In this document: piece by piece, positions 35,101-64,000 of the stretch | Layout of the letters: each line of letters opens with the position of its first letter | Position numbering within the stretch: the first letter of the stretch is position 1 | Source of the DNA: Apostichopus japonicus | Taxonomy: Eukaryota > Echinodermata > Holothuroidea > Aspidochirotida > Stichopodidae | Assembly (NCBI RefSeq): GCF_037975245.1 | Contig: NC_092569.1 | Coordinates: 28,994,668 to 29,058,667, forward strand | Direction of reading: 5' to 3' | DNA length: 64,000 nucleotides | The notes under the pieces: generated by a model | Seen by the model: the letters and a program-made list of their open reading frames with translations, nothing else | Databases searched by the model: none | What the model was told of the DNA's origin: nothing | Position numbers and translations under genes: made by a program

Positions 35101-38100
35101 ATGAAGAGTGCAAATAGGGTAATGAGAGTGGTGGGAGGTTGGGGGGGGGAGGGGGGTGGGTAATTACATAATTCTCCCTGGGTAATGCTCTTTTTCAACT
35201 GCAGTGCTTGGTATTTTCAGTCTGAAGAATATACCATTACCGATGAGGGTATGAAGTTTAATACTGTATTACTATAAGTAAACATTTAAAATAATGTACA
35301 GGGTTTAAGACCTTTTTGTACAGAAGATTGTATATACTGTATTGTCAACTTTAAATGAAAACTCATAGAACTTGAATTCAGGACTCCAAAGCCTGTTTTC
35401 TCTGTTAGGTAACACAGCACATCGTGGTTATTTAACGAGGGTTTCACGTACTACTTTCTCCGATCTCTTTGATCAGGTGCTGGAATTCCTCCCAGGCAGA
35501 ACCACCTGATTTAGCCGATGAAGAATCGGGAATGAATGCTCTGAAAAGACACATAGTACAGTATGTAAAATATGGAGCAACCCACATTAGTTCACTTTTA
35601 ATATGCATGATTTCAATATCAGAAAAAAAGGTATACAGTATATTGCTTTGATTGTATTATAAACCAACCTTTAGTGACTTTGTATCCAGGGTAATATTGT
35701 TGTTTACTGTCGGGAAACACTTTTAATACATTCTAAAGATTTAGTTAATGGGATGGATTATTCAGACGTGTAGCCAGGAATTTGCCAAGGGAGGGGCGAA
35801 ACTGTAGATTCGGCATTGCAAACTATCTAAGCGTAGCGCCACCATGGTTGGCGCGAAGCGTACAAGAACATTTTGGCTGAAAATGACATATTTGTCAATG
35901 ACGTTCGTAGTGTTTACAGTAAATATTCATATTATGGGCGAGGTTTATTGGGATCCCAACGGAAAATATCTTGGAGAAAAACAAAGTTGCAAATTTTTTC
36001 GACTTTTATGCCACCATTTGAAGTAAGATTTAAATAGATAAGCTAGTTGTGTATGTCGTTATGGCATAGTGGAGTCAGTGAGGTTGAGAAAAATTATAGA
36101 AAGGACGCAAAATGCTGCTTCAAGTTAAAAAACAAAAGCATTAACAAACATATCAAAACCAACTAAATACAATCCACTCTAAATAGCAATACAGGTATTC
36201 TCCATTCTTTGCAGCCTAGAGGTCACTGCCATTCTGTAATAACCAAGGCATTTCATTTACAGTAATGATAACAAGTTTTTCTCTTACGGTAAGTGCATAT
36301 CATTTTCAATGTGACAAGAAAATAATCCAAGGTTAAATTAAATGTACATATCAGATTTCAATGAAAACAAAAAGCAATTCTTTTCCCTACGTTTTAACCT
36401 CTTATTCCTTTTTTATGTTTATATGTTAGTACTTTAATACAGCTTTTCATGGCACAAATATTGCAAGACTGCCGTGGTAAAGATATTTTTAAATGTGCAA
36501 CATAATGAAGTAGGATCATGATACTATCACACCTCCTACATAGTATGGCTCAAAATCCTAAATGTTTTATCAAGGAAAAGTTTGGAAAGCTTAAAGTCCT
36601 TAACTATCTTAACTTGACAAGAAAAAAGGTTTGCTACCTACCCAACAAGTAACAAGGTGACAGCAAAACCAACAAAGCACGCAGTAAACTTTGAGGCCTG
36701 AAAAAGTCTCTGATCAAAAAAAGAAAAGAAAAAGAAAGATTCGTTCATATAAGTGTAAGACTAGTTTGTATACCTTTTTGCATATCAGTAAAGCTGACAG
36801 AAATATCCCCAAAGAGAAAGCTTTGTTCATATTAGTGTAAGACTAGTTTGTATATCGGTCTGCATATCAGTAAAGCTGACAGAAATATCCCCAAAGAGAA
36901 AGCTTCGTTCATATAAGTGTAAAACTAGTTTGTATACCGGTCTGCATATCAGTAAAGCTAATAGATATATCCCCAAAGAGAAAGCTTCGTTCATATAAGT
37001 GTAAGACTAGTCTGTATACCGGTCTGCATATCAGTAAAGCTGTCAGAAATATCCCCAAAGAGAAAGCTTTGTTCATATAAGTGTAAGACTAGTTTGTAAA
37101 CCTGTCTCCATATCAGTAAAGCTGACAGGAATATCCCCAAAGAGAAAGCTTCCTTCATATAAGTGTAAGACTAGTTTGTAAACCTGTCTCCATATCAGTA
37201 AAGCTGACAGGAATATAGCCCCTCAAAAAAGGAGCTTTTTTTCAAACATAGGTCAGTTATGTCATTATGACTGCATACAGTAGACCTGCACATGTACCTT
37301 TTAAGATATATCTAGATAAGAATTCACTGCACCCTGTTCGGTTTGCTAATATTGGCTAGAGATATATGATACTTCGGTTTGGCTGCAGAGCAATAGAATT
37401 TGTTGAAAATATATTTATAAAGGAATATGAAAAAAAGAGAGAGCAGACTGCTACATTTGAACGTGGGGCAACTATAAATGATTGTCTTGGAATGACGGAA
37501 CATAGAAGAAATACTCACAGATTTTAGAGTTATGTCTTCATCCTCTTCTTCGTAGAAGAATATTGCAAACGGAATGACCAGAAACAGGAAAGCTATAATC
37601 AAGCTGTACAGGACTGAATACGACAAGACAATGAGTCAATTAGCATAATAATCTAGCATGAATTGTAAAACCAACTCATAAAGGGTGGATGAGAGAAGCA
37701 TTCTGCATGCAATAATAGGGTGGACCTCTCTGTTAAATGCATCTCCTATAACCATAATAATAATAGCCTGACATAGCAAACTATGGGATGGGTCCTGTGA
37801 TGAGCAATTTGAGGGGAAAGTGGAGGGGGATGGGGATAGGGAGTTACAAGCAAATGAAAGGGGAAATTAAAACATACTGTAGATACCGCAACAGGTCACA
37901 AGTTTGTAACAGGACCATTGCCAAATTGGGGCACAGGGGGAGCTTCTGTTTATTGGTTTTTTTTTTTCCTTCTGTACATTTAAGTTAACTGCCTCCTTTG
38001 TAAAACTTGCTTTGTGAAATGGCTCTTATATAGTACTGTACCTCCTTGTAGGACAAACACAATTAAACTGAAACTGAAAATACAGTCTACACTGTATATT

Positions 38101-41100
38101 GCACTATCAGTTCACACAACAATACTCAGAGAGCTCTCAAGGGAAATGGATATATTATTCAATAGAACATCAACTCACTGTAGTATGTATACAAGATGGC
38201 TGTCTCCACTTTAGCTCTGGTTTCATTGTTACTTGCCCATTCCTGGCGACAAAATTAAGTAACGAAATATCAATACATTTAAAATTTCATACAGTTGGCA
38301 CACTGCCATGCATTGTATGTATGCAAATTAAGACTGAAATTTTGTATAAGGGTAATAAGTGATTGACCCTTTCCTTTCATGTATATACTGTACTTATATA
38401 GATATAATTGAAATTAAAGTGAGTTGGAAAATCCAGAACAGTGAAAAAATTCCAGACACCACCGAGATTCGAACCCGGGCCTCCCACTTTATATGTCAAC
38501 ACCATACTACATATATAGATAGTTTAATAGAAAAATATTTTCTTTTTTTGGCTGTATTCTTTAATTCTGCTCTTCAAACAGATATGATTTTATATAATAT
38601 AATATAATATAATATAATATAATATGATATACTGTACATACTATAAAATATATATTATAAACAATGATTTATATTTATATACAAATATTTATATACAATA
38701 TATACAATACAAAAATATTTATATACAAATATATATATTGTATACAAATATATATATACAAATATATACAAATTTATATACAAATTTATACACAAATATA
38801 TACAAATATTTATATTTATATACAAAAAACAAAATAAATATATATCAAAACAAATATATATATAATATAAAATATAAAAAAATTTAATATGTGGACAGTA
38901 TCATACCTTGAATTCTCCATCAGGGTCTTTCATGTACGAAACAACAAAGATGTCGACTGGAATCAGGGCCAGTGCTCCCAGCGTCACCATCAGTGAAATG
39001 ACACCTGTAATATAAGGGGTTACCTTCCGTAAGAGTTGAATTATTTTATTATTACGACGTTATTTATATAGCGCATAATCCACAAGTTCTATGCGCTTTA
39101 CAATTAACCCTTGTCATAGGTACAGTAACTTGTCACACCTACACACCAAAGTGTGCACAATTCAAACAATCTCTCCTGGGGCACAACAGTGCACCACAGC
39201 CACGTGTCCCCTGGGGGACTTCCCATAGGGTGCAGCCACAAACCGGGCGCACACAACTATATTTACAAGTCACCTCGCAAGTCCCCATTTATACAACTGG
39301 GTGAAGAGAGGCAATGGAGGTGCCTTGCCCAAGGACACAACGCAATGATCTGGCCAGGGCTCGAACCTGTAATCCTTAGATCACAAGTCCACTGCCTTAA
39401 CCACTTGACCACAATGCCCCGAATTAAAACAGATCATAAATGATACCATTGTCTGATTGATCATCATGAAAACTAAAGGCACCAATTTTACTGAGTCATA
39501 AATGGTGCAATTTAATACCACCCTGCAAAGTTAATGACTTTTAGGCAGGCTTCGTTGTGGACCTTTTGTCACAAATTTCCAACTATCGCATCTTATGTAA
39601 TTACCTCAAAACTGTAAGATTAAAACAAATCAAATTATAAGGCACCTTCCAAAACAAGAATATGCTTCTTTTAACAACAATGATTTTTATTTTCTATTAC
39701 TATTCAAGGGACACAAACCAAAATCATCATCTTTGGATTTTACTGTAAGTACTATATATATGACAAAGATGTCTGTGAACTCCCCCCCCCCCTACAGTGT
39801 AGGGCCCATTGATATAAACAATGGTCAAGGATACAATATAGGGTCAATTGATATAACCACTGATCAAGGCTACAGTGTAGGGCCCATTGATATCACCACT
39901 GATCAAGGCTACAGTGTAGGGCCCATTGATATTACCAATGATCAAGGCTACAGTGTAGGGCCCATTGATATAGCCACTGACCTATTTCATTCAAATAGGC
40001 CTAGATATCATATCCCAAATTTCCTACGAGCTCTCATTGTCCCCCTCCATATTGTAATATACGGAAAATGTCATTTATCATCAACGACTTATAAAAAGAC
40101 TAAATACAATTTGTCAGCTTCAACGATCGTTAGAGAATAGGCCTAGTGTCACAGAATATGCACATATGCATACCGTTCATTGTGCAAAACGTTCAGTGAC
40201 CTGTACTGCACAGTGCATCTTATGAGTATATACTGTACAGTAGTGGTTACTGTTTGTGAGTCGTACAAAGGGCAATAACTTATGATAGCCGAATACAATT
40301 TGAATATGTAACTGAACAGATTTAAATGCATGCAAAGAGAGGTTTTATTGTTTGTGACATTGAGGGTTTTTATAGTTTTTGAAGATTTTTCATTTTTTTT
40401 TATTATCATTAACATATTTTTTGGTGATTTCCTTGTTGAACTCATCATTGACTTCTCTAGCACTGGCGTGTAAATTGGTCTGGACTTTTTTGACCAGTAG
40501 GTATAGTTCTAGACATATTGTGCAGTGCAATCATTATTTACAGTAGCTAATGGACAGCAGTTTGTTCAATGTTGGTAGAATCAAAGTTTGAATTGCATGG
40601 AAGCTAGCAAGAATCAAAGATAGTTGCAGCTCTCCAAAATCTGTAAATAAATTTTCAAAAGTATGGAAAATCCCTGTGACCAGGTGACCCACTCTTGGGG
40701 TCACACACTCCACAGTTTGCGGGCAATTGCCCTAGGGTATAGTTAAACACAAACGTGAACTACTGTACACACCAGTGGTTGTGGAACTACAGACACTGCT
40801 TCTCTTGTTGCGATAATACCGGATGTAGAATGTTGACAAAATTCCAGATACCTGAAATAAAAGGAAAAAATTGTTTAAAATTGTGTTTATTTAGTAAATT
40901 TGAGCCCAATTTTACATGGATAATCATGCATGCACAGGTATGATGTATGGTCTTTCAGTAGAAATTCCCTGCCATGTAAAATTCTTTTGGTATGGGTCTA
41001 GGGCAGGGTTGTCCAACCTTTTGCAGAGGAGGGCCACATGGAATGATTATGATGAAGGAGGGGGCCACATGAACCCTACGCTCGATCTTTTGCCCGAAGC

Positions 41101-43465: not shown

Positions 43466-43507
43466 CTTCACGACCGCTTTCGTCCTTTTTGGACTCATCA
43501 GGCGAAG
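43466..43507 (-). ncRNA. minimal type-I hammerhead ribozyme
   Basis: On the minus strand the order is CTTCGC, CTGATGA, GTCC, AAAAA, GGAC, GAAA, GCGGTC, GTGAAG. CTTCGC pairs with GTGAAG (6 bp, one G-U) as stem I. GTCC/GGAC form a 4-bp stem II with an A5 loop. CTGATGA and GAAA are the invariant core boxes. GTC before GTGAAG is the classic cleavage triplet. Stem III is reduced to the A15.1-U16.1 pair around a 4-nt GCGG loop, as in the small-stem-III hammerheads known from Penelope-like and retrozyme elements of animals, which are thought to act as dimers. All core bases are intact. Activity is inferred. Confidence 0.8.
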
Positions 43508-45296: not shown

Positions 45297-48200
45297 TCAC
45301 GCCCTGTAAAACTCTTGTAACTCTGCATCGACCGGTTTAAGCACAGCTCTGTCTGTCAAGTTGATGATCCAACCGGGTTGTAATCCAAAGAATATTTGGC
45401 GAGGGTCTTTTCTTAACCGGTGAAGGGCTCGCCGGGAGCCCTTCGTGAGATCCGGAAGTTCGTATCCAAACTTTTGGGCTAATAGTAATCTGTCTTCTTT
45501 GATTTGGTTCGGATCTGACAAGTAGCCTCTCTTAGAAGGATCTGTGTACATATCGACCAGATCCTTGGGGGGTAAAAGTCTTTTAGGAATAGGCTGGCCT
45601 CTCCTGAAGAACTGCAATGGGTGTGAGAGAATATCCAAGCTCTGTGGGTCATAGTATCCGAGACTTATCGTTCCCCCGCTCCGCTCTACGGCCGCGATGG
45701 ATAATTCAGATGTCCACTGTACTTCTAAATTGACAGGGGCAACAAACTTATCAGCACCCTGTGAATGAAGACAGTATTGCAATAATTAGCCTTATTTGAT
45801 ATATATGAATATTACCATCTTGGACACTTGCTTACGGTCATGATAGAACCTCAGAAATTCAAAAACGGTAGCAAATTTGCAAATTCGGTTTACGCTTTGC
45901 ACAGTTACTACTTCTCGCCAAAACAACGATTTCATATTTATGATGTTTTGACATGATGGTTGCAAGTGTGCACAAACGGCAACTTTCAGATTGATTTCCA
46001 TTTTGAGAAAAAGGAGTACGGTATGTGTGCAGACTATGTGTGCAGACCCTATGTTTTACCAATTTTCAATGTGTGTTAGTCGTCAATGTGATATCCCTCC
46101 TGCAGTTTAGTCACCATGTACACTACAGTATGTTTCTGTATTTGCAAGCAAAAAAATTTCATGATATGAAAGAGAGAGAGTAAAAATATCAAAACATTAA
46201 GACTAGAGCATCTCCAGAAATGATCGATAATATTTAACTGCTTGCCACTCTCTCTATTACTCCATTTGAAATGTTGCTAGAAATGGCAAAGGATCATCAA
46301 GATACTAAACTGAATTATCACAAATTCACTGAGCAACTTATCGGCCACTGAAATTTATGTACTGAAGTGAACTTTATGGTGAAAGTTTACAAGAATATTG
46401 AACTATTACTACTAGTTTAGTTGAACAAATCTAGATTTCAAATGAATATGTTTTGGATGTTACTTTCTTTCTACATATCATTTTGTCCATGAACCATGGT
46501 TGCATACAGTGCAGGCTTCCACTTAGTACTATGGTACACAGTACTTGAAGAGGAAACCATGGTTGCATACAGTGCAGGCTTCCACTTAGTACTATGGTAC
46601 ACAGTACTTGAAGAGGAAACCATGGTTGCATACAGTGCAGGCTTCCACTTAGTACTATGGTACACAGTACTTGAAGAGGAAACCATGGTTGCATACAGTG
46701 CAGGCTTCCACTTAGTACTATGGTACACAGTACTTGAAGAGGAAACCATGGTTGCATACAGTACAAACTTCCACTTAGTACTATGGTACACAGTACTTGA
46801 AGAGGAAACCATGGTTGCATACAGTGCAGGCTTCCACTTAGTACTATGGTACACAGTATTGAAGAGGAAACCATGGTTGCATACAGTGCAGGCTTCCACT
46901 TAGTACTATGGTACACAGTATTGAAGAGGAAACCATGGTTGCATACAGTGCAGGCTTCCACTTAGTACTATGGTACACAGTATTGAAGAGGAAACCATGG
47001 TTGCATACAGTGCAGGCTTCCACTTAGTACTATGGTACACAGTACTTGAAGAGGAAACCATGGTTGCATACAGTACAGGCTTCCACTTAGTACTATGGTA
47101 CACAGAACTTGAAAGGAAAACTTCTGTGAGACAACAGGTTTGGCTTACACTTTGGCAATACCACTTTACCTCATCTGTTAGGTGTATCCCATAAACTCTA
47201 TCGAATACATTGATTCGCACAGCCCCAGCATGTACAAAAGAGGTGACATCAATGGGCTCTTCTGGGTCGATTCGGCCCATGTCAATTAAATGTTGCAACT
47301 TCTCCAGGGAGACAGGTAAGTACTGTCTTCTTGTGCTGAGGATAGAGAAAAGCAAAGAGGGGTGTAACATCTAATAATAGAAACAGTACATACATAGCCA
47401 TGTACACAATTACAAAGTTACCTTGACATTGTAAATACTTTTTGGAAATACCAGACAATTTTGAACCAAAATGTACACTGCTAATTGTCATCAGGAACTA
47501 GAGTACTAGCGCTAACGGTGCTAAACCAAGCTTGAGGAGAGGAGTGTCCAGAGGGGGTATCATAACCAGGGCAGAAGTCTGGGGGCCAAGGAAAATGTGA
47601 TCATGAATATGCATTCTCATTTGCAAAATCGACTTACGGAAGAATTAACATATACTACTGTAAGGTAGGATTTTCGGGGACAGTCCCCAATTACAGTGTG
47701 CTGTCCTCGATGAACAAGTGTCCCCGAAAATGTCCCCGATTCGTCAAAATGTTCAGGAATTTCGAAAATATCCGACATAATTAGTAAAATAATTGCTAAA
47801 ACAAAACTTAGTCAAGTGTGCAGTCGCAGATTGGAACGGAACACAAATTTATGACACAAGCAACTCACAAGCTCTTAAGAACCATGTAAAGTAAGTGAAT
47901 TTCATCTAAGAAAAAGCTACATTTTTGAAAATAAAAGTGATTTAAAAAGTGCTTCTAAGTATCACCATTTTACATCTACTGTAAGCACCTTAGGCACTTG
48001 AAAATTTTGCAAAGAGGAAAGGGACACCCCTCCCCTTAAACCCCTACCCCATATCAGTCAAGCAATAAATGTCCCTGATTCCAGTCAGGAAAATATGGTC
48101 ACCTTATACTACAGAGTGCTGTACTTGTACCCGGGGGTCCCATCTGACTCTCTATGCTCCTGTGTGAATTTGACAGCCTTGAACTGATTATTATTGTAAT

Positions 48201-56000: not shown

Positions 56001-59000
56001 GTATATAGTATTTGCTTATATGACATTAAAGTCTGCACAGAACTGAATTGAATGACCTTGAAGGCTCACAAACATGTGGAACATCAAAACAGGCAAACTT
56101 TGAGGATATTTCATATAAGTATTTAAGGCAAAACACCCTCCTGAAATGTTTGTACATACAGGGTGGTACTATATCTCTTCCAGACAAAATAACAAATTTT
56201 TCAACACAACGTGTTTTGAGTTACTGGCTGTAAAAGACGACCTCTTTTGTACATCAGAGCAACTTAACAACCTCATAAATTAATACTGAGAAATGCTAGA
56301 ACCCTGATATTTGGTAATGTGTACTGAAAGAATACTTATAATTAAAGTACTAAACCCTCACATCTCTAAAATGATTACGTCGGTAAAAACTTGGCATCAA
56401 AACCCCTTCCTCATGCTGAATCGCAGCATGAAATAGCAACTTCAGAGCTGCAAAACTTGCAAATATATTACAGGAAAGCAAAAATGTGATAATATAAAAT
56501 ATCTTTAGTATTGTTTGTACTAGACATAATAACCTCTGAAAGAATCAAGTACCCTGCAGCAATGGTTTAGGAACAATTCATCACTAAAAAAAGCACATTG
56601 AAGTTCACTCCACAATGCAATGATTTATAGCCTTAATTTTTTATTTTCCATTTCTATTGTATAGACTCTATAGGCTTCTGTAATGGAAAGGTAGTAGGAT
56701 GTTTTATTGTTGAGAAATGATACCTCAAAAATCAAGAAAATGCCCAAATGCCACGGTGGCAACAAATTGCAGAATTTCAAGTTTGATAACTCTGCCAATT
56801 TTGAACCAATGCAACTGAAATTTTCAGAATATATGCTTCCTTCATGGTATTCCATGCATACAATTAATTTGGAATTTTTAAAAGATGTTGAAACTACAAC
56901 ATACTCCAAAATTTGGTGATTTGATGGAATGACCCATATCTTCATATTCAGAATTTGAAGAGAGAAAGAATGAGTTATGTTTTAAAACATCAAGTTTTGG
57001 TTTGGATTTATGACCGATTCATATTAATCAAATTTATTGCTTTAGGACAGTTGCGTGCATTGGCGTCTTTAAATGTTGTAATCCTATTTTGTACTAAATG
57101 TCTATTAAGTTATTGCAAAGTTTTGCTCTGAAAAAATTGTGAAAGATGTCAAAATTTGGTATTGCAAATGAATAGTAATACAATAGTTCACTAGCTACAA
57201 GTAGGCTAGAGAGTCCAGTTATGGTCACTCTTGAGGAATAATTTATTTTGTATTGTAAAGCATTGAATCAATGTGCCAGAAAATGAGCAATTTGCTACAT
57301 AAATTAAAATATATCAGTTTGGTATTGTACAAGGGACCAGGGTTGCCAGATCATCTACTGTATTTTGTAACTAGCCAAATTGGCCTCAAAATTGGGTGAG
57401 ATAATGTCAAATTTATAGGAATTTGCTAACATTATTTAATGACAGTTTACCTTGTGGGTAAGAAAGTTTGTGTGTAAGTAATTGTATCGTAATTGAGGGT
57501 GTCTTAAATGAAACATGGAGTAAAACATGATTAAAAATTGCCAATTAATATCCTTACATGCTGGTAGGCTCTGATGTGCAACTTTAAATGGGACTGAACA
57601 GCATAAAATAATTGAAATTAATGTTTCTTTGGGGAATTTAGCAATTTTTAGCTACCTGTACTGTACAACCTTTTTTTTTTTTTTTTTAAATTGGTAGACC
57701 ATTCAAATATATGCCTAAATTTGTCAACCCTGCACTGAACCATTTAACGCTTTATTCAGTATTTATATTCCATTGTCACTCCTGCTAAAATTTCAGAAAG
57801 GATCTTACTATCGGGATGAGAACATGAAACAATCTGTTTCTTCATGAGGCATTTAATTGGACATGACAAAATTGACAACAAACAAAAGGCAAATTCTTCA
57901 AAATATGAAGTGTAGTGAGCTTTCTGATCTAGTTATGTTGTCCTGTTGGGTCAAGCTTTGGGGATTACCAGCTGTCTACTGCTTGACCAAATGTAAGAAA
58001 ATGTAAGAAAACAAGTCTCGTGTCCGGAAACCGAAGAGAGTTTGGTATAGTAGATTCAGGTGCGACGAATACATCCACTCATGACACAGTCATGTCACAG
58101 ATCGTTGTTCAAATCTCAAAATTGACTTACTGTGTTCTTAACTTAAATGAAGAAGCTTGGATCTGATATTAACCTTATACCTAATTAATGGGTTGTACCA
58201 GTATGATTATTATTATAATTTACTATAAATTTGAATTTACCTGTATGTAACAACCAGTCAGTTGTATCATAACTAGTGGTTGTTCATACTGCATAACTTC
58301 AAAATAAAGTACTCAAGAATTCAATATTTTATTTTCAATAGGCGGAGCTTGCTGGAATTGAATCTCTGAAAGGTGACAGCCCGTCTCCCGAGCCGCCTCC
58401 CCCGGCATCAAAGCCAGGGGTGGTTAAACGAGAAGCGCCCCCATCCAAAGAAGAAACACATGTAGCTCCTCCGTCAAGACCGCCCGTGGCACAGCCTAGA
58501 AGCAATGTTTCCCAACCATTGAATATTCAACCTCTGGAACCAACCCCTGCTGTATCCCCGGCTCAAACAACAGTCGCCGGTGTCCATAGGCCTGCGCCGA
58601 TTCACAAGCCACCCGCCGTCCCCGAGACTCGTAAGCAGGAGGACCACCAGTCAACGTTTGTGCCAGCAGTAACGCATCAACCTCAGGTTGTGATTCCCCA
58701 GGGCAATGCCGGGGTCTACCCTAGACCGGACTACCCAGGATCTGATAGGATTATGGCGTCAGTCCCTAAACAGGTAAAACCCATTTCTTGCTGTAATATT
58801 AACTGAAGAAGAAAGGTACAGATTCGGTCATTTCGGTCATTCAGATTTCGGTCATTCAGATTTCGGTCATTCAGATTCGGTCACAAATAACAAGATATAT
58901 GCTTCATTAAACTTCCAAAGTTATGGTCTATCTTAAATCAGAATTGAAATTCATTTTGAAAGAATGTATCAATGGTTGGTGTAATGCTGTGTACAGTTAA

Positions 59001-61297
59001 AGATTTAGACTTTCTCCAACTTTCATTAGATATGATTTATAGCTAATATTTGTTTTGACTCAAAGTCAAACTTTGCAATCTAATGCAGTTCGCTTGATTC
59101 TTTCATCATATGTCATAAATTAACAGTAAAAACGTTAATATGAGTTGACGTTAAGTACGCCAACTACTATACATCACAATATACCCTTTCTTGATAACTA
59201 AGATTTTAATCTGTATGTTTTGCTCTTTGGTAATGAATATGGGTTTCAGCAAAGGGGATGATGTTTGTGGATATTACCCTTGCTTTGTTCCTCAAACGGA
59301 TAATTCATACAAGATCATTTCAATCAATCATTTTCACATTTCTGTGTACATATTGAATTTTTCTAGACCAAAATTTTTTCTCTTACAGCCAATAGGCCCC
59401 GGTGGTGTGACAACAATTATTGAATCTCGCATCAGAAATTACGAGACAGCTCTTTCGAATGCTCGTTTGAATCACCAAGATACAAAAGCAAGGCGATATG
59501 ACAGAGGATTGCAGGTGTGTAGTATCATCAATGATTTGATAATAATAATTAATAATTAACATTTCTTATATAGCGCAACTTACAATAAAGTCTCCCCGCG
59601 CTGTACTTAACCCTGGTCATTGATAACTTGTCAAACCTACACACCAAAGTGTGCACAATCCAAACAATCTCTCCTGGGGCACCACAGTGCACCACAGCCA
59701 CGTGTCCCCAGGGGGGACTTCCCATAGGGTGCAGCCACAAACCGGCACACGCAACTATATTTACAAGTCACCTCGCAAGTCCCCAGAAGAGAGGCAATGG
59801 AGATAAAGTGCCTTGCCCAAGGACACAACGCAATGATCTGGCCAGGTTTCAAACCTGTAATCCTGGAAGTGTTAATTGTGGTAGTAAGTTTATATGTCAA
59901 GATATGTCAGATTGTGAAGGACCTTATAGAACTGTGAGTGAGTGTACCCAATGATCTCTGCATGGTCATCCGCATGGTCAACGCTGAAGACTCTCTGATG
60001 TCCTGGTTCTGACTTTATTTTCGGACAAATTTAAAGGGTGTGAAGACTCGCGCAAAAAGAAATGTCTAAAGCCGGTAATCTGACCTAGTTTCGAATGAGG
60101 TGTAACAGAAGTGTTAGACACCACCATCGATCCCAGAAAATACACACACAGCTTGCTACCGTCAGTAATTAGACACTAGTGTACTTACAGCTGCGGTCAA
60201 TACCCACAGCACAGTGTACATATAATAGCAGCAATGGACATCTCAGGTCTAGATAAAAGATAACAAGGTATCACCTTTCATTACTGTACTGTCTGCATTT
60301 TGTCGCGACATGAACAAAACGTCACTTGCAAGCAACGGAAAGTTAACTTTTTCAGATGGCCGCACGGTTTGGGGCGAGTCTTCAATACCTTTAACTCGGT
60401 TGTTTTATACTGAGATGAAACTAACAATATTTTATTGCAAGGAATCGCAAAGCTTCTGGTTGAATTTTCTCTGGTTAATCATGATTTCTTTGCTCAATGT
60501 AATTTTTAAATCTTAGCCAAAAATTACGACTGAAGATGGGAAGAGTAGTTTAGCATAACTTTGCCCCCCAGTAAAGCAATCTGTTTTCGAACAGATAGTA
60601 ATCAATATGAAATCTACATGACACAGAATTGATTTAACGGTGATATCCTAAATATGTCATAACTTTATGATCACTTGGTACGAAGTATAGGAATGAGAAA
60701 GACAATAGTCTAAAGACAATACAAGCTCATTTGTCCAAAGAGAGTGAATTTACATTGTATGATCGGACTGCAAAGGCGTAGTGGTGTCATTTGTGATTTC
60801 AATGCAGTCCTTGGGATTTGTGATTTAAGGATATGTTAGATTATCTTGGTTTGAAAGATTAACTGTGAATTTGAACTTTGGCATTCTGTGATTGTCTTTA
60901 ACTAGTGCCTCACAAAGGGAGTAACTAAAAAATTAAGTTGAAAGCAATTATCATGAAGTTTATGACTTTGTTTATGGTATACAATTTTGACTTGTTTACA
61001 ATTATGTATAGATTCGTCCATGGGACTTAGTACTAATGTTCTGCTGTGCAATATTTGATGAATTATTTTCCAAGTCTTAAATGATAAAGTTCTTTCCCAT
61101 TTAACGTCGTCTTCTGACATCACCGTTGAAAATCTGCTTCTAACAACAGACACTTAAAGACCTTCATAAGAGAGCCAAAGCAGGACGGCGAGTTGATGAA
61201 TCAGAGGTCCCGCCAGAAGTGGCTGTAGGGATCAGCCAAGAAGTGGAAAGGCCACCAATGGATGCTACTACCACAGAACCCCAGACTACAGTCCCAG
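53056..61297 (+). CDS. CC2D1: CC2D1 (Lgd family), 5' six exons, truncated by window end
   Basis: Exons: 53056-53118, 53848-53986, 55616-55668, 58342-58773, 59389-59514, 61150-61297. All are GT-AG and the phases agree, giving 320 residues before the gene continues beyond the window or beyond the array. The start MFGRKKQKD and the acidic DPDEMLEAELLALMEEE (about 40-56) match the family N-terminus. Exon 4 is a Pro-rich linker. Exons 5 and 6 encode a DM14 domain (YETALSNARLNHQDTKARRY, DRGLQ, KAGRRVDESEVPPEVA). Known members have four DM14 domains and a C2 domain, bind CHMP4/Shrub of ESCRT-III, and control endosomal sorting and Notch trafficking. The gene could be CC2D1A or CC2D1B; invertebrates usually have one. 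The last exon ends in TTTEPQTTVP, the source of the array that follows. Confidence 0.93.
54185..54597. mobile_element. GGGTCATTCC element, copy 3 (short; CC2D1 intron 2)
   Basis: It begins GGGTCATTCCATGTCATATC and ends GGCGGAATGACCC. Only the outer 12-20 bp match the other copies; the interior differs, so this is a deletion derivative or a sister subfamily. No transposase is present. Confidence 0.7.
55040..55345 (-). mobile_element. tRNA-derived SINE in CC2D1 intron 2
   Basis: On the minus strand GCTGTGGCTGAGTGGATAAA (A box TGGCTGAGTGG) is followed about 45 bases later by TTCATGGTTCGATCCCCGGC (B box GGTTCGATCCC). The spacing and the long variable region resemble a class II tRNA such as tRNA-Leu or tRNA-Ser. 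A non-tRNA body follows. It is not the same family as the SINE at 39044-39420. It is antisense to CC2D1. Confidence 0.75.
55774..56935. mobile_element. GGGTCATTCC long-TIR element, copy 2 (CC2D1 intron 3)
   Basis: The ends are GGGTCATTCCATGTCAAATC and, inverted, GGGTCATTCCATCAAATCAC. The inner arms share AAATTTCAGTTGCATTC and the GCCACTGTGGCATTG block. The central region is colinear with copy 1 (for example AGGGTGGTACTATATCTCTT, GAACCATTGCTGCAGGGTAC in inverse, and ATAATAACCTCTGAAAGAAT). It lies just after exon 3. Confidence 0.8.
59541..59867 (-). mobile_element. tRNA-derived SINE, 5'-truncated, in CC2D1 intron 5
   Basis: Same family as 39044-39420, sharing CACACCAAAGTGTGCACAA, AATCTCTCCTGGGGCAC, GGACTTCCCATAGGGTGCAG and AAGGACACAACGCAATGATC. 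Its B box is mutated (GGTTTGAAAC on the minus strand) and the A-box part is missing. Confidence 0.8.
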
Positions 61298-63874
61298 GTA
61301 AGCACCTAGAACCACAGAACCCCAGACTACAGTCCCAGGTAAGCATCTAGAACCACAGAACCCCAGACTACAGTCACAGGTAAGCACCTAGAACCATACT
61401 ATTGCTACTACCACAGAACCCAAGACTACAGTCCCAGGTAAGCACCTAGAACCATACTATTGCTCCTAACACAGAACCCCAGGCTACAGTCACAGGTAAG
61501 CACCTAGAACCATACTATTGCTACTACCATAGAACCCCAGACTACAGTCCCAGGTAAGTACCTAGAACCATACTATTGCTACTACCACAGAATCCCAGAC
61601 TACAGTCCCAGGTAAGCACCTAGAACCATACTATTGCTACTACCACAGAACCCCAGACTACAGTCCCAGGTAAGCACCTAGAACCATACTATTGCTACTA
61701 CCACAGAACCCCAGACTACAATCACAGGTAAGCACCTAGAACCATACTATTGCTACTACCACAGAACCCCAGACTACAATCACAGGTAAGCACCTAGAAC
61801 CATACTATTGTTACTACCACAGAACCCCAGGCTACAGTCCCAGGTAAGCACCTAGAACCATACTATTGCTACTACCACAGAACCCCAGACTACAATCACA
61901 GGTAAGCACCTAGAACCATACTATTGTTACTACCACAGAACCCCAGGCTACAATCACAGGTAAGCACCTAGAACCATACTATTGCTACTACCACAGAACC
62001 CCAAACTACAGTCACAGGTAAGCACCTAGAACCATACTATTGCTACTACCACAGAACCCCAGACTACAGTCACAGGTAAGCACCTAGAACCATACTATTG
62101 CTACTACCACAGAACCCCAGACTACAGTCACAGGTAAGCACCTAGAACCATACTATTGCTACTACCACAGAACCCCAGACTACAGTCCCAGGTAAGCACC
62201 TAGAACCATACTATTGCTACTGCCACAGAATCCCAGACTACAGTCCCAGGTAAGCACCTAGGACCATACTATTGCTACTACCACAGAACCCCAGACTACA
62301 GTCCCAGGTAAGCACCTAGAACCATACTATTGCTACTACCACAGAACCCCAGACTACAATCACAGGTAAGCACCTAGAACCATACTATTGCTACTACCAC
62401 AGAACCCCAGACTACAATCACAGGTAAGCACCTAGAACCATACTATTGTTACTACCACAGAACCCCAGGCTACAGTCCCAGGTAAGCACCTAGAACCATA
62501 CTATTGCTACTACCACAGAACCCCAGGCTACAGTCACAGGTAAGCACCTAGAACCGTACTATTGCTACTACCACAGAACCCCAGACTACAATCACAGGTA
62601 AGCACCTAGAACCGTACTATTGCTACTACCACAGAACCCCAGACTACAATCACAGGTAAGCACCTAGAACCGTACTATTGTTACTACCACAGAACCCCAG
62701 GCTACAGTCCCAGGTAAGCACCTAGAACCATACTATTGCTACTACCACAGAACAACAGACTACAATCACAGGTAACACCTAGAACCATACTATTGCTACT
62801 ACCACAGAACCCCAGACTACAATCACAGGTAAGCACCTAGAACCGTACTATTGTTACTAACACAGAATCCCAGGCTGCAGTCCCAGGTAAGCACCTAGTA
62901 CCGTACTATTGTTACTACCACAGAACCCCAGGCTACAGTCCCAGGTAAGCACCTAGAACCGTACTATTGTTACTACCACAGAACCCCAGGCTGCAGTCCC
63001 AGGTAAGCACCTAGAACCATACTATTGCTACTACCACAGAACCCCAGACTACAATCACAGGTAAGCACCTAGAACCGTACTATTGTTACTACCACAGAAC
63101 CCCAGGCTACAGTCCCAGGTAAGCACCTAGAACCATACTATTGCTACTACCACAGAACCCCAGACTACAATCACAGGTAAGCACCTAGAACCATACTATT
63201 GCTACTACCACAGAACCCCAGACTACAATCACAGGTAAGCACCTAGAACCGTACTATTGTTACTAACACAGAACCCCAGGCTACAGTCCCAGGTAAGCAC
63301 CTAGTACCATACTATTGTTACTACCACAGAACCCCAGGCTACAGTCCCAGGTAAGCACCTAGAACCGTACTATTGTTACTACCACAGAACCCCAGCCTGC
63401 AGTCCCAGGTAAGCACCTAGAACCATACTATTGTTACTACCACAGAACCACAGGCTACAGTCCCAGGTAAGCACCTAGAACCATACTATTGCTACTACCA
63501 CAGAACCCCAGACTACAGTCACAGGTAAGCACCTAGAACCATACTATTGTTACTACCACAGAACCACAGGCTACAGTCCCAGGTAAGCACCTAGAACCAT
63601 ACTATTGCTACTACCACAGAACCCCAGACTACAGTCCCAGGTAAGCACCTAGAACCATACTATTGCTACTACCACAGAACCCCAGACTACAATCACAGGT
63701 AAGCACCTAGAACCATACTATTGCTACTACCACAGAACCCCAGACTACAATCACAGGTAAGCACCTAGAACCATACTATTGTTACTACCACAGAACCCCA
63801 GGCTACAGTCCCAGGTAAGCACCTAGAACCATACTATTGCTACTACCACAGAACCCCAGACTACAATCACAGGT
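61273..63874 (+). repeat. 58-bp array duplicating the CC2D1 exon 6 end and splice donor
   Basis: About 45 units. Each holds CTACTACCACAG, AACCCCAGACTACAGTCCCA plus G, then GTAAGCACCTAGAACCATAC and TATTG. The first unit is the genuine 3' end of exon 6 and its donor. Units two and three are about 41 bp and the rest 58 bp. Two main variants (GACTACAATCACAG and GGCTACAGTCCCAG) alternate in blocks, which shows higher-order amplification. Nearly every unit keeps CAG|GTAAGC, so the array carries dozens of strong 5' splice sites. The period is not a multiple of three, so reading through would shift frame. Confidence 0.97.
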
Positions 63875-64000
63875 AAGCAGTGTTCGACTTATGGTCAAAA
63901 CATTGCATAGCAACAAATTTGGACAATTGCTATACAATATTTTTGTTGCATAGCAGTTCCCCAATATTGAATAGCAGTTTTGAAATTACCACAAAACGGA
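63875..64000. other. intron continuation after the array
   Basis: Ordinary AT-rich sequence with a repeated GCATAGCA(A/G) word at about 35-50 bp spacing (near 63906, 63948 and 63970), possibly the edge of another repeat. No acceptor or exon of CC2D1 was recognised before the window ends. Confidence 0.4.

Follow-up and report, generated by a model that had tools for sequence, protein, structure and literature searches.

A coding exon end and its splice donor form a minisatellite of 46 donors in a CC2D1 gene of Apostichopus japonicus

The end of a CC2D1 exon and its splice donor are tandemly repeated

The 64,000-nucleotide (nt) stretch of Apostichopus japonicus DNA analyzed here (NC_092569.1, positions 28,994,668 to 29,058,667; hereafter the window) ends inside a CC2D1 (DM14-domain) gene, in which the 3' end of one coding exon, together with the 5' splice site (donor) that follows it, is present as a single-locus minisatellite of head-to-tail copies, with a unit of tens of bases and 46 donors (Table 1). 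The anatomy of this array is nearly certain. Our data suggest, with good though not overwhelming probability, that the array arose at the exon end as a minisatellite, grew on the intron side of the boundary and has been tolerated while the first donor (donor 1) is chosen, which would be the case in most transcripts. If donor 1 is used, the intron has been enlarged about tenfold and the message is unchanged.

A preliminary description of this DNA had proposed that the array derives from the 3' end of a CC2D1 exon and its donor, and this holds: the final 35 nt of the exon (61263-61297) are identical to the unit consensus. The unit comprises the last 33-35 nt of the exon and the first 23-25 nt of the intron, and is shorter in the first two copies. 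Tandem Repeats Finder (TRF) reports a period of 58, 43.6 copies and a score of 4363, and the GGTAA junctions number 46, spanning 61297..63872. The earlier figure of about 45 donors over 2.6 kb was therefore right as to the array itself, and its count is corrected to 46 in the window, or 47 with one that lies past a mobile element at the downstream edge. Likewise, the proposed 58-nt unit fits 42 of the 45 junction spacings and fails for the first two units, which are 41 nt long; the one remaining spacing is 57 nt. The junction CAG/GTAAGC (the slash marks the exon-intron boundary) had been said to be kept exactly along the array, and 44 of the 46 donor words are indeed CAGGTAAGC, the others being one CAGGTAAGT (GTAAGT) and one CAGGTAACA (GTAACA). 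Neither strand of bases 1-61200 contains CAGGTAAGC.

The 42 units of 58 nt differ from one another by 5.7% on average in pairwise comparison, and 26 distinct types occur among 45 units. We found no fixed higher-order period (lowest p 0.07 over lags 1-15) and no special RNA structure over five units (minimum free energy -34.8, compared with -35.8 for shuffles). A search of the genome (671.6 Mb, 35 contigs) with a 28-nt word of the unit gave 31 perfect matches, all of them at this locus; one lies 1.6 kb beyond the array because an insert of 1,560 bp interrupts the last unit. Copy number is easily misjudged in long arrays of near-identical units, and an assembly artefact or a wrong copy number could on that ground be suspected, but the diversity of unit types, the mobile element at the right edge and the different flanks on the two sides make either hardly credible. 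Copy number likely varies between individuals.

Donor 1 alone keeps the reading frame

The exon that carries the array completes the DM14 domain begun in the 59389-59514 exon, after which the linker begins, ...MDATTTEPQTTVP. Joined to the two exons upstream, it gives a match to Pfam CC2D1A-B_DM14 (E 5.4e-20), and when it is joined to the next two exons its translation enters a further DM14 domain. The first of these lies outside the window at 65853-65968 and starts in phase 1 (here and below, coordinates past 64000 are in extended numbering, which continues the window coordinates into fetched downstream genomic DNA). The junction of donor 1 with this exon reads ...TTEPQTTVP-D-ENTYKMLCQRRDLYKMAALKSKREGDPAMAMEYLKVSK, and adding the exon after it gives the next DM14 domain. 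When the 47 donors were tested singly through the next exon, the frame was open for donor 1 only. With donor 2 (+41 nt) the frame is shifted and a stop follows within the next exon, and donors 3-47 all hit the TAG at 61348, hence a premature stop for 44 of the 46 donors in the window. The preliminary description had expected the frame to be lost unless the chosen donor lay a multiple of three units downstream; no such rule applies, because each of the first two steps adds 41 nt and the TAG stands at 61348.

Origin of the array and choice among its donors

In the history that we propose, the exon end and the intron start that now make up the unit would have been tandemly duplicated, probably via a TG common to exon (GGATGCTAC) and intron (CTATTGGGATGG). 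The array would then have risen to about 46 units by slippage and by unequal exchange of several units at a time. Its growth lies wholly on the intron side, with the original exon and its own donor left intact at the upstream edge, and a high-copy mobile element landed later, in the last unit. Since copies pile up on its downstream side, the exon keeps its sequence and its own donor, and arrays of this kind can therefore persist if the first donor is chosen. Donor 1 would be favored because it is the first that U1 encounters as the gene is transcribed and because exon definition from the upstream acceptor would favor the shortest exon (148 nt); preference for the first-met donor and for the shortest exon are both known principles of donor choice. 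The remaining donors would be passengers, whose occasional use would give transcripts open to nonsense-mediated decay. Conservation at the donor positions does not significantly exceed that of the other unit positions (1 of 9 sites variable, compared with 16 of 49, in 42 units; p 0.26), as expected of passengers. The account is also favored by the identity of exon end and unit consensus, the restriction of the unit to one locus, the repeated five-unit block, the likely ancestral intron start beyond the mobile element, the open frame for donor 1 alone, and the recurrence of the anatomy in ten of 19 arrays with a readable start (see below).

Several observations weigh against this account. The donor word does not single out donor 1: predicted pairing with the U1 5' end amounts to -11.0 kcal/mol in 44 of the 46 window donors, all with the common donor word, and donor 6 (GTAAGT, 61553) pairs more strongly, at -13.5 kcal/mol. 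Selection of donor 1 would consequently have to depend on the order or the context of the donors. The acceptor of the exon itself has a low score (-2.22 when left out of the acceptor matrix described below), which weakens the argument from exon definition. Donor-competition experiments are reported often to favor the donor closest to the acceptor, which in this array is donor 47; the intron measures 412 nt from donor 47 to the next acceptor, compared with 4,555 nt when donor 1 is used. Finally, the human gene IFI6 is reported to use downstream units of its minisatellite (PMC4526556).

The IFI6 report, in which two downstream repeat units are in use, raises the alternative that several of the first donors are used in CC2D1 as well, and that extended or truncated products, or decay, tune CC2D1 output. 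The near-equality of the donors would suit such a role, as would their predicted U1 pairing, which ties the strongest among the eight donors read in the gene (the seven others range from -6.5 to -11.0 kcal/mol). However, with donor 2 shifting the frame and every later donor leading to the TAG, use of other donors would bring product loss and not protein isoforms, and we regard a source of isoforms as unlikely, if still worth keeping in mind.

Acceptor-like words within the units

An acceptor-like word 21 nt before each donor, also noted in the preliminary description, is confirmed: an AG stands 21 nt upstream of the donor in all 45 repeat units, and its score is rather good. By a matrix built from only the 8 acceptors of this gene, a tiny set in which real sites were scored while left out in turn, the word scores 5.99-8.89 (mean 8.27, 43 units), the mean exceeding the highest score among 109 intronic AGs (8.23) as well as the scores of six real acceptors (all eight range from -2.76 to 10.13). 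The 21-nt mini-exons that these words would open had been proposed as usable in principle, and in each of the 45 units the mini-exon is open and keeps the frame, at a site in the linker ahead of the next DM14 domain, where a bank of mini-exons could lengthen the linker by EPQTTVP-like heptads. The proposal falters on the introns that adjacent mini-exons would require, of 37, 36 or 20 nt, and on the branch point: the yUnAy consensus, sought 60-10 nt upstream of the AG, occurs in 0 of 43 units compared with 7 of 8 real acceptors. Unit variants show no synonymous bias in the donor-1 frame (2 of 10 variants; null 2.64, p 0.84). In addition, no in-frame mini-exon AG (at least 12 nt) with as many pyrimidines upstream was found in four other exon-end arrays described below, those of HECTD3, KRI1, C17 and the VPS39-like gene (at most 9 of 17, versus 11 in CC2D1). 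We consider a mini-exon bank improbable.

In one other frame (NPRLQSQ in 40 of 45 units) the variants do look synonymous. Over the 21 nt, 6 of 10 are synonymous (p 0.050 for the single frame, 0.098 over three forward frames), and over the 35 exon-derived nt, 9 of 15 (p 0.026 and 0.040, respectively). This signal is weak and is not taken as evidence; it lies in the wrong frame relative to donor 1, an opposite-strand frame does better (p 0.011, 21 nt), and coding selection on the mini-exon was rejected.

The units had further been suggested to act as recursive splice points or as a sponge for U1. The window's transcript has 46 U1 sites, and the word CAG/GTAAG is the core of a recursive site. For a sponge we see no support; the nascent transcripts of one gene would be few relative to U1. 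As zero-nt acceptors, the CAG/GT junctions score at most 3.43, which exceeds the 90th-percentile value for intronic AGs (0.43), but their mean of -4.54 (43 units) resembles the intronic median of -4.70. Moreover, the recursive motif, as given in PMC10156609, consists of at least five adjacent pyrimidines, 0-4 nt, and then YAG/GT, whereas the longest pyrimidine run directly before CAG/GT in the array, judged by eye, is three (TCC). We regard both roles as very improbable.

A mobile element at the downstream edge

The insert that splits the last unit has the ends CAGTGTTCGA and TCGAACACTG, and its 8-bp target duplication, CAGGTAAG, is the donor word itself. The target duplicate past the element created donor 47, whose last exonic-side base is 65440, outside the window. 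The first 139 nt of the element gave 40 scored matches including its own (171 candidates), all starting from base 1 at 98-100% identity; the 39 other copies, at 98-99% identity, support the ends of the element. By this likeness the insert appears to be a recently active, high-copy mobile element. It combines the 8-bp target duplication with short terminal inverted repeats and is presumably hAT-like, a family label that we assume from the length of the duplication. Past the element lies the likely ancestral intron start, GTAAGCACCTAGAACCATACTATTG, which continues into DNA unlike the unit.

Similar arrays at other exon ends of the genome

Donor words at minisatellite spacing recur elsewhere in the genome. 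Three copies of CAGGTAAG with gaps of 25-55 occur at 289 + 169 places, and a reversed control at 110 + 94. Arrays were listed with gaps of 24-54 and three donor words: triplets of CAGGTAAGT (61 places) comprise 6 arrays, triplets of CAGGTAAGC (66 places) comprise 6, and triplets of CAGGTAAGA (192 places) comprise at least 9 among the matches listed (about 100 of the 192). Two arrays with CAGGTAAGG or non-CAG donor words, beyond the three words listed, were seen on C2. Enrichment of the donor word over its reversed form (61 vs 54 places for CAGGTAAGT, 66 vs 0 for CAGGTAAGC, 192 vs 131 for CAGGTAAGA and 458 vs 204 with no ninth base) was considered and dropped, as place counts follow array length and the control arrays were left uninspected.

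The 21 arrays comprise that of the window, 19 that were partly fetched, and C8:42294511, which was left out; the piece fetched for C13 lay inside its array, so that 19 starts were readable. Ten of these 19 CAGGTAAG arrays begin at the end of an open frame whose final bases recur in the units, and an acceptor-like AG opens the frame in nine of the ten (the nine inspected; DNAH2 was left out). Six of the genes have database support (CC2D1, KRI1, HECTD3, PDE9, DNAH2 and PIGU; Table 1), their names resting on short exons. The other four, namely an array in what we take to be a VPS39-like gene and those of C17, C4 and C18, are recognized by their open frame, database searches having returned no match for them. 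Donor 1 of the VPS39-like array is GTAGGT and its copies are GTAAGT; the first copy in C18 is mismatched 5 nt from the junction. A RhoGEF-like array (C11:18561800-18563000, minus strand) begins exactly at an exon donor but has only 5 exonic nt in common with the unit, and it was left out of the ten; it may represent the same kind of event on the intron side of the boundary. Its RhoGEF-like match (E 0.0004) is below the family's cut-off. For the remaining eight arrays, no exon was seen in the printed frames, and C9:13271142 is doubtful. Further tandem arrays (21, 39, 66 and 104 nt) surround that of KRI1.

In the ten arrays and the RhoGEF-like one, a stop begins 1 to 99 nt downstream of donor 1. 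The repeat donors that stand ahead of it are at +41 (CC2D1), +49 and +98 (HECTD3), +44 (PDE9) and +56 (VPS39-like), none of them a multiple of three. This agrees with the account proposed for CC2D1, although a stop at so short a distance would often arise by chance. In 93.9 kb we counted 8 arrays with a period of at least 15, at least 3.5 copies and a score of at least 150, and two besides that of CC2D1 have a unit of 33-63 nt, which puts, as a rough estimate, about 0.1% of positions within a founder unit. Given that a genome has very many donors (uncounted), several exon-end arrays could be plain by-products. The simplest account is that minisatellites, arising in a repeat-rich genome, occasionally include the end of an exon. 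More tentatively, and with doubts of our own, we suggest that exon-end donor minisatellites may form a recurrent class here, with up to 47 near-identical donors and ten genes so far, in which only the first donor keeps the frame (judged through the next exon for CC2D1, and from the frame and unit lengths for the others) and the splicing machinery would have to commit to it. In its boldest form, this suggestion would make 5' splice sites preferred birthplaces of minisatellites, or would have commitment to the first donor shield the arrays.

The choice of the spliceosome among identical donors is usually tested with few artificial copies. Ten apparent cases in one genome, several with tens of near-identical donors, constitute a natural test of donor choice in which the coding frame reveals which choice is productive, and the CC2D1 array is a case, if donor 1 is used, of an intron that grew about tenfold without the message being touched.

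Relationship to known systems

Turri et al. (1995), by the title of their report, are said to have found that the minisatellite of human IFI6 (6-16, G1P3) provides multiple splice donors. According to PMC4526556, two downstream units are used as donors, which results in three mRNAs. The two systems are alike in that minisatellite units supply splice donors, and the CC2D1 array likewise begins at a coding exon end and has units that carry the donor consensus. It is unlike IFI6, whose unit is shorter, in that just one of its 46-47 donors, the first, keeps the frame, and in that the same anatomy is found at ten exon ends of one genome; furthermore, downstream units are reported in use in IFI6, whereas those of CC2D1 are presumed passengers. 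In fission yeast, 24-bp tandem repeats with AGGT became introns in SPOG_01682 and SOCG_00815 (PMC4974935). Those repeats resemble the CC2D1 array in that tandem copies hold both AG and GT, but in CC2D1 the duplicated segment straddles a boundary between exon and intron that was already there, and no new intron is needed. For the same reason, intron gain by tandem duplication (Rogers), which requires a wholly exonic segment and a new intron, was set aside; the intron start is preserved downstream. With ordinary intronic minisatellites the array has in common a single locus, a unit of tens of bases and multi-unit duplication, and it differs from them in that its founder includes a coding exon end and a donor. 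A literature search of partial coverage returned no donor minisatellite beyond IFI6 by title or abstract start, and within that coverage it is the recurrence of donor minisatellites over many genes of one genome that appears undescribed.

Table 1. Features of the CC2D1 locus and database support for array exons of other genes
Feature	Position in window	Strand	Remarks
Upstream CC2D1 coding exon, proline-rich	58342..58773	+	donor CAG/GTAAAA; frame open from AG to GT; included in the joined protein
CC2D1 exon, first half of DM14 domain	59389..59514	+	ends in phase 0 at CAG/GTGTGT
CC2D1 exon with amplified 3' end	61150..61297	+	second half of DM14 and linker ...ATTTEPQTTVP; ends in phase 1
Minisatellite, 46 donors	61263..63877	+	exon copy and 45 further copies; last copy split by mobile element
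Donor 1, CAG/GTAAGC	61295..61303	+	sole frame-keeping donor of 47 through the next exon
Two short 41-nt units beside the exon	61298..61379	+	without 17 nt flanked by ACC (by eye)
In-frame TAG	61348..61350	+	met by any transcript using donor 3 or later
Five-unit block, types GHHIH	61612..61901	+	also at 63583-63872: multi-unit duplication
Five-unit block GHHIH, second copy	63583..63872	+	from comparison of unit types
Mobile element of 1,560 bp, left end	63878..64000	+	whole element 63878-65437 (extended numbering); sits in last unit
KRI1 array exon			Kri1_C, E 7.5e-29; 4.9e-32 when joined to next exon
HECTD3 array exon			75 residues (with next exon) match PDB 9r85 residues 470-544, E 4.5e-32
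PDE9 array exon			8bpy, E 5.7e-11
DNAH2 array exon			8j07, E 1.9e-19
PIGU array exon			Pfam, E 8.3e-14; 8imx, E 2.6e-12

Other features of the window

Two further tandem arrays were seen in the window. A 63-nt array of 10 copies (46492-47119) lies about 50 nt inside the apparent intron that follows a minus-strand ribosomal-L15-like exon (Ribosomal_L27A, E 7.6e-06) and excludes the apparent donor, and an 82-nt array of six copies (36729-37216) has five GTAAG words on the plus strand. A Type I hammerhead ribozyme match is located at 43466-43507 on the minus strand (35.4 bits, Rfam cut-off 34). A tRNA match at 39346-39418, also on the minus strand (29.1 bits, cut-off 29), is perhaps part of a short interspersed element (SINE), and peptides like those of its region recur in frames at 59589-59954 and, in extended numbering, at 69896-70225.

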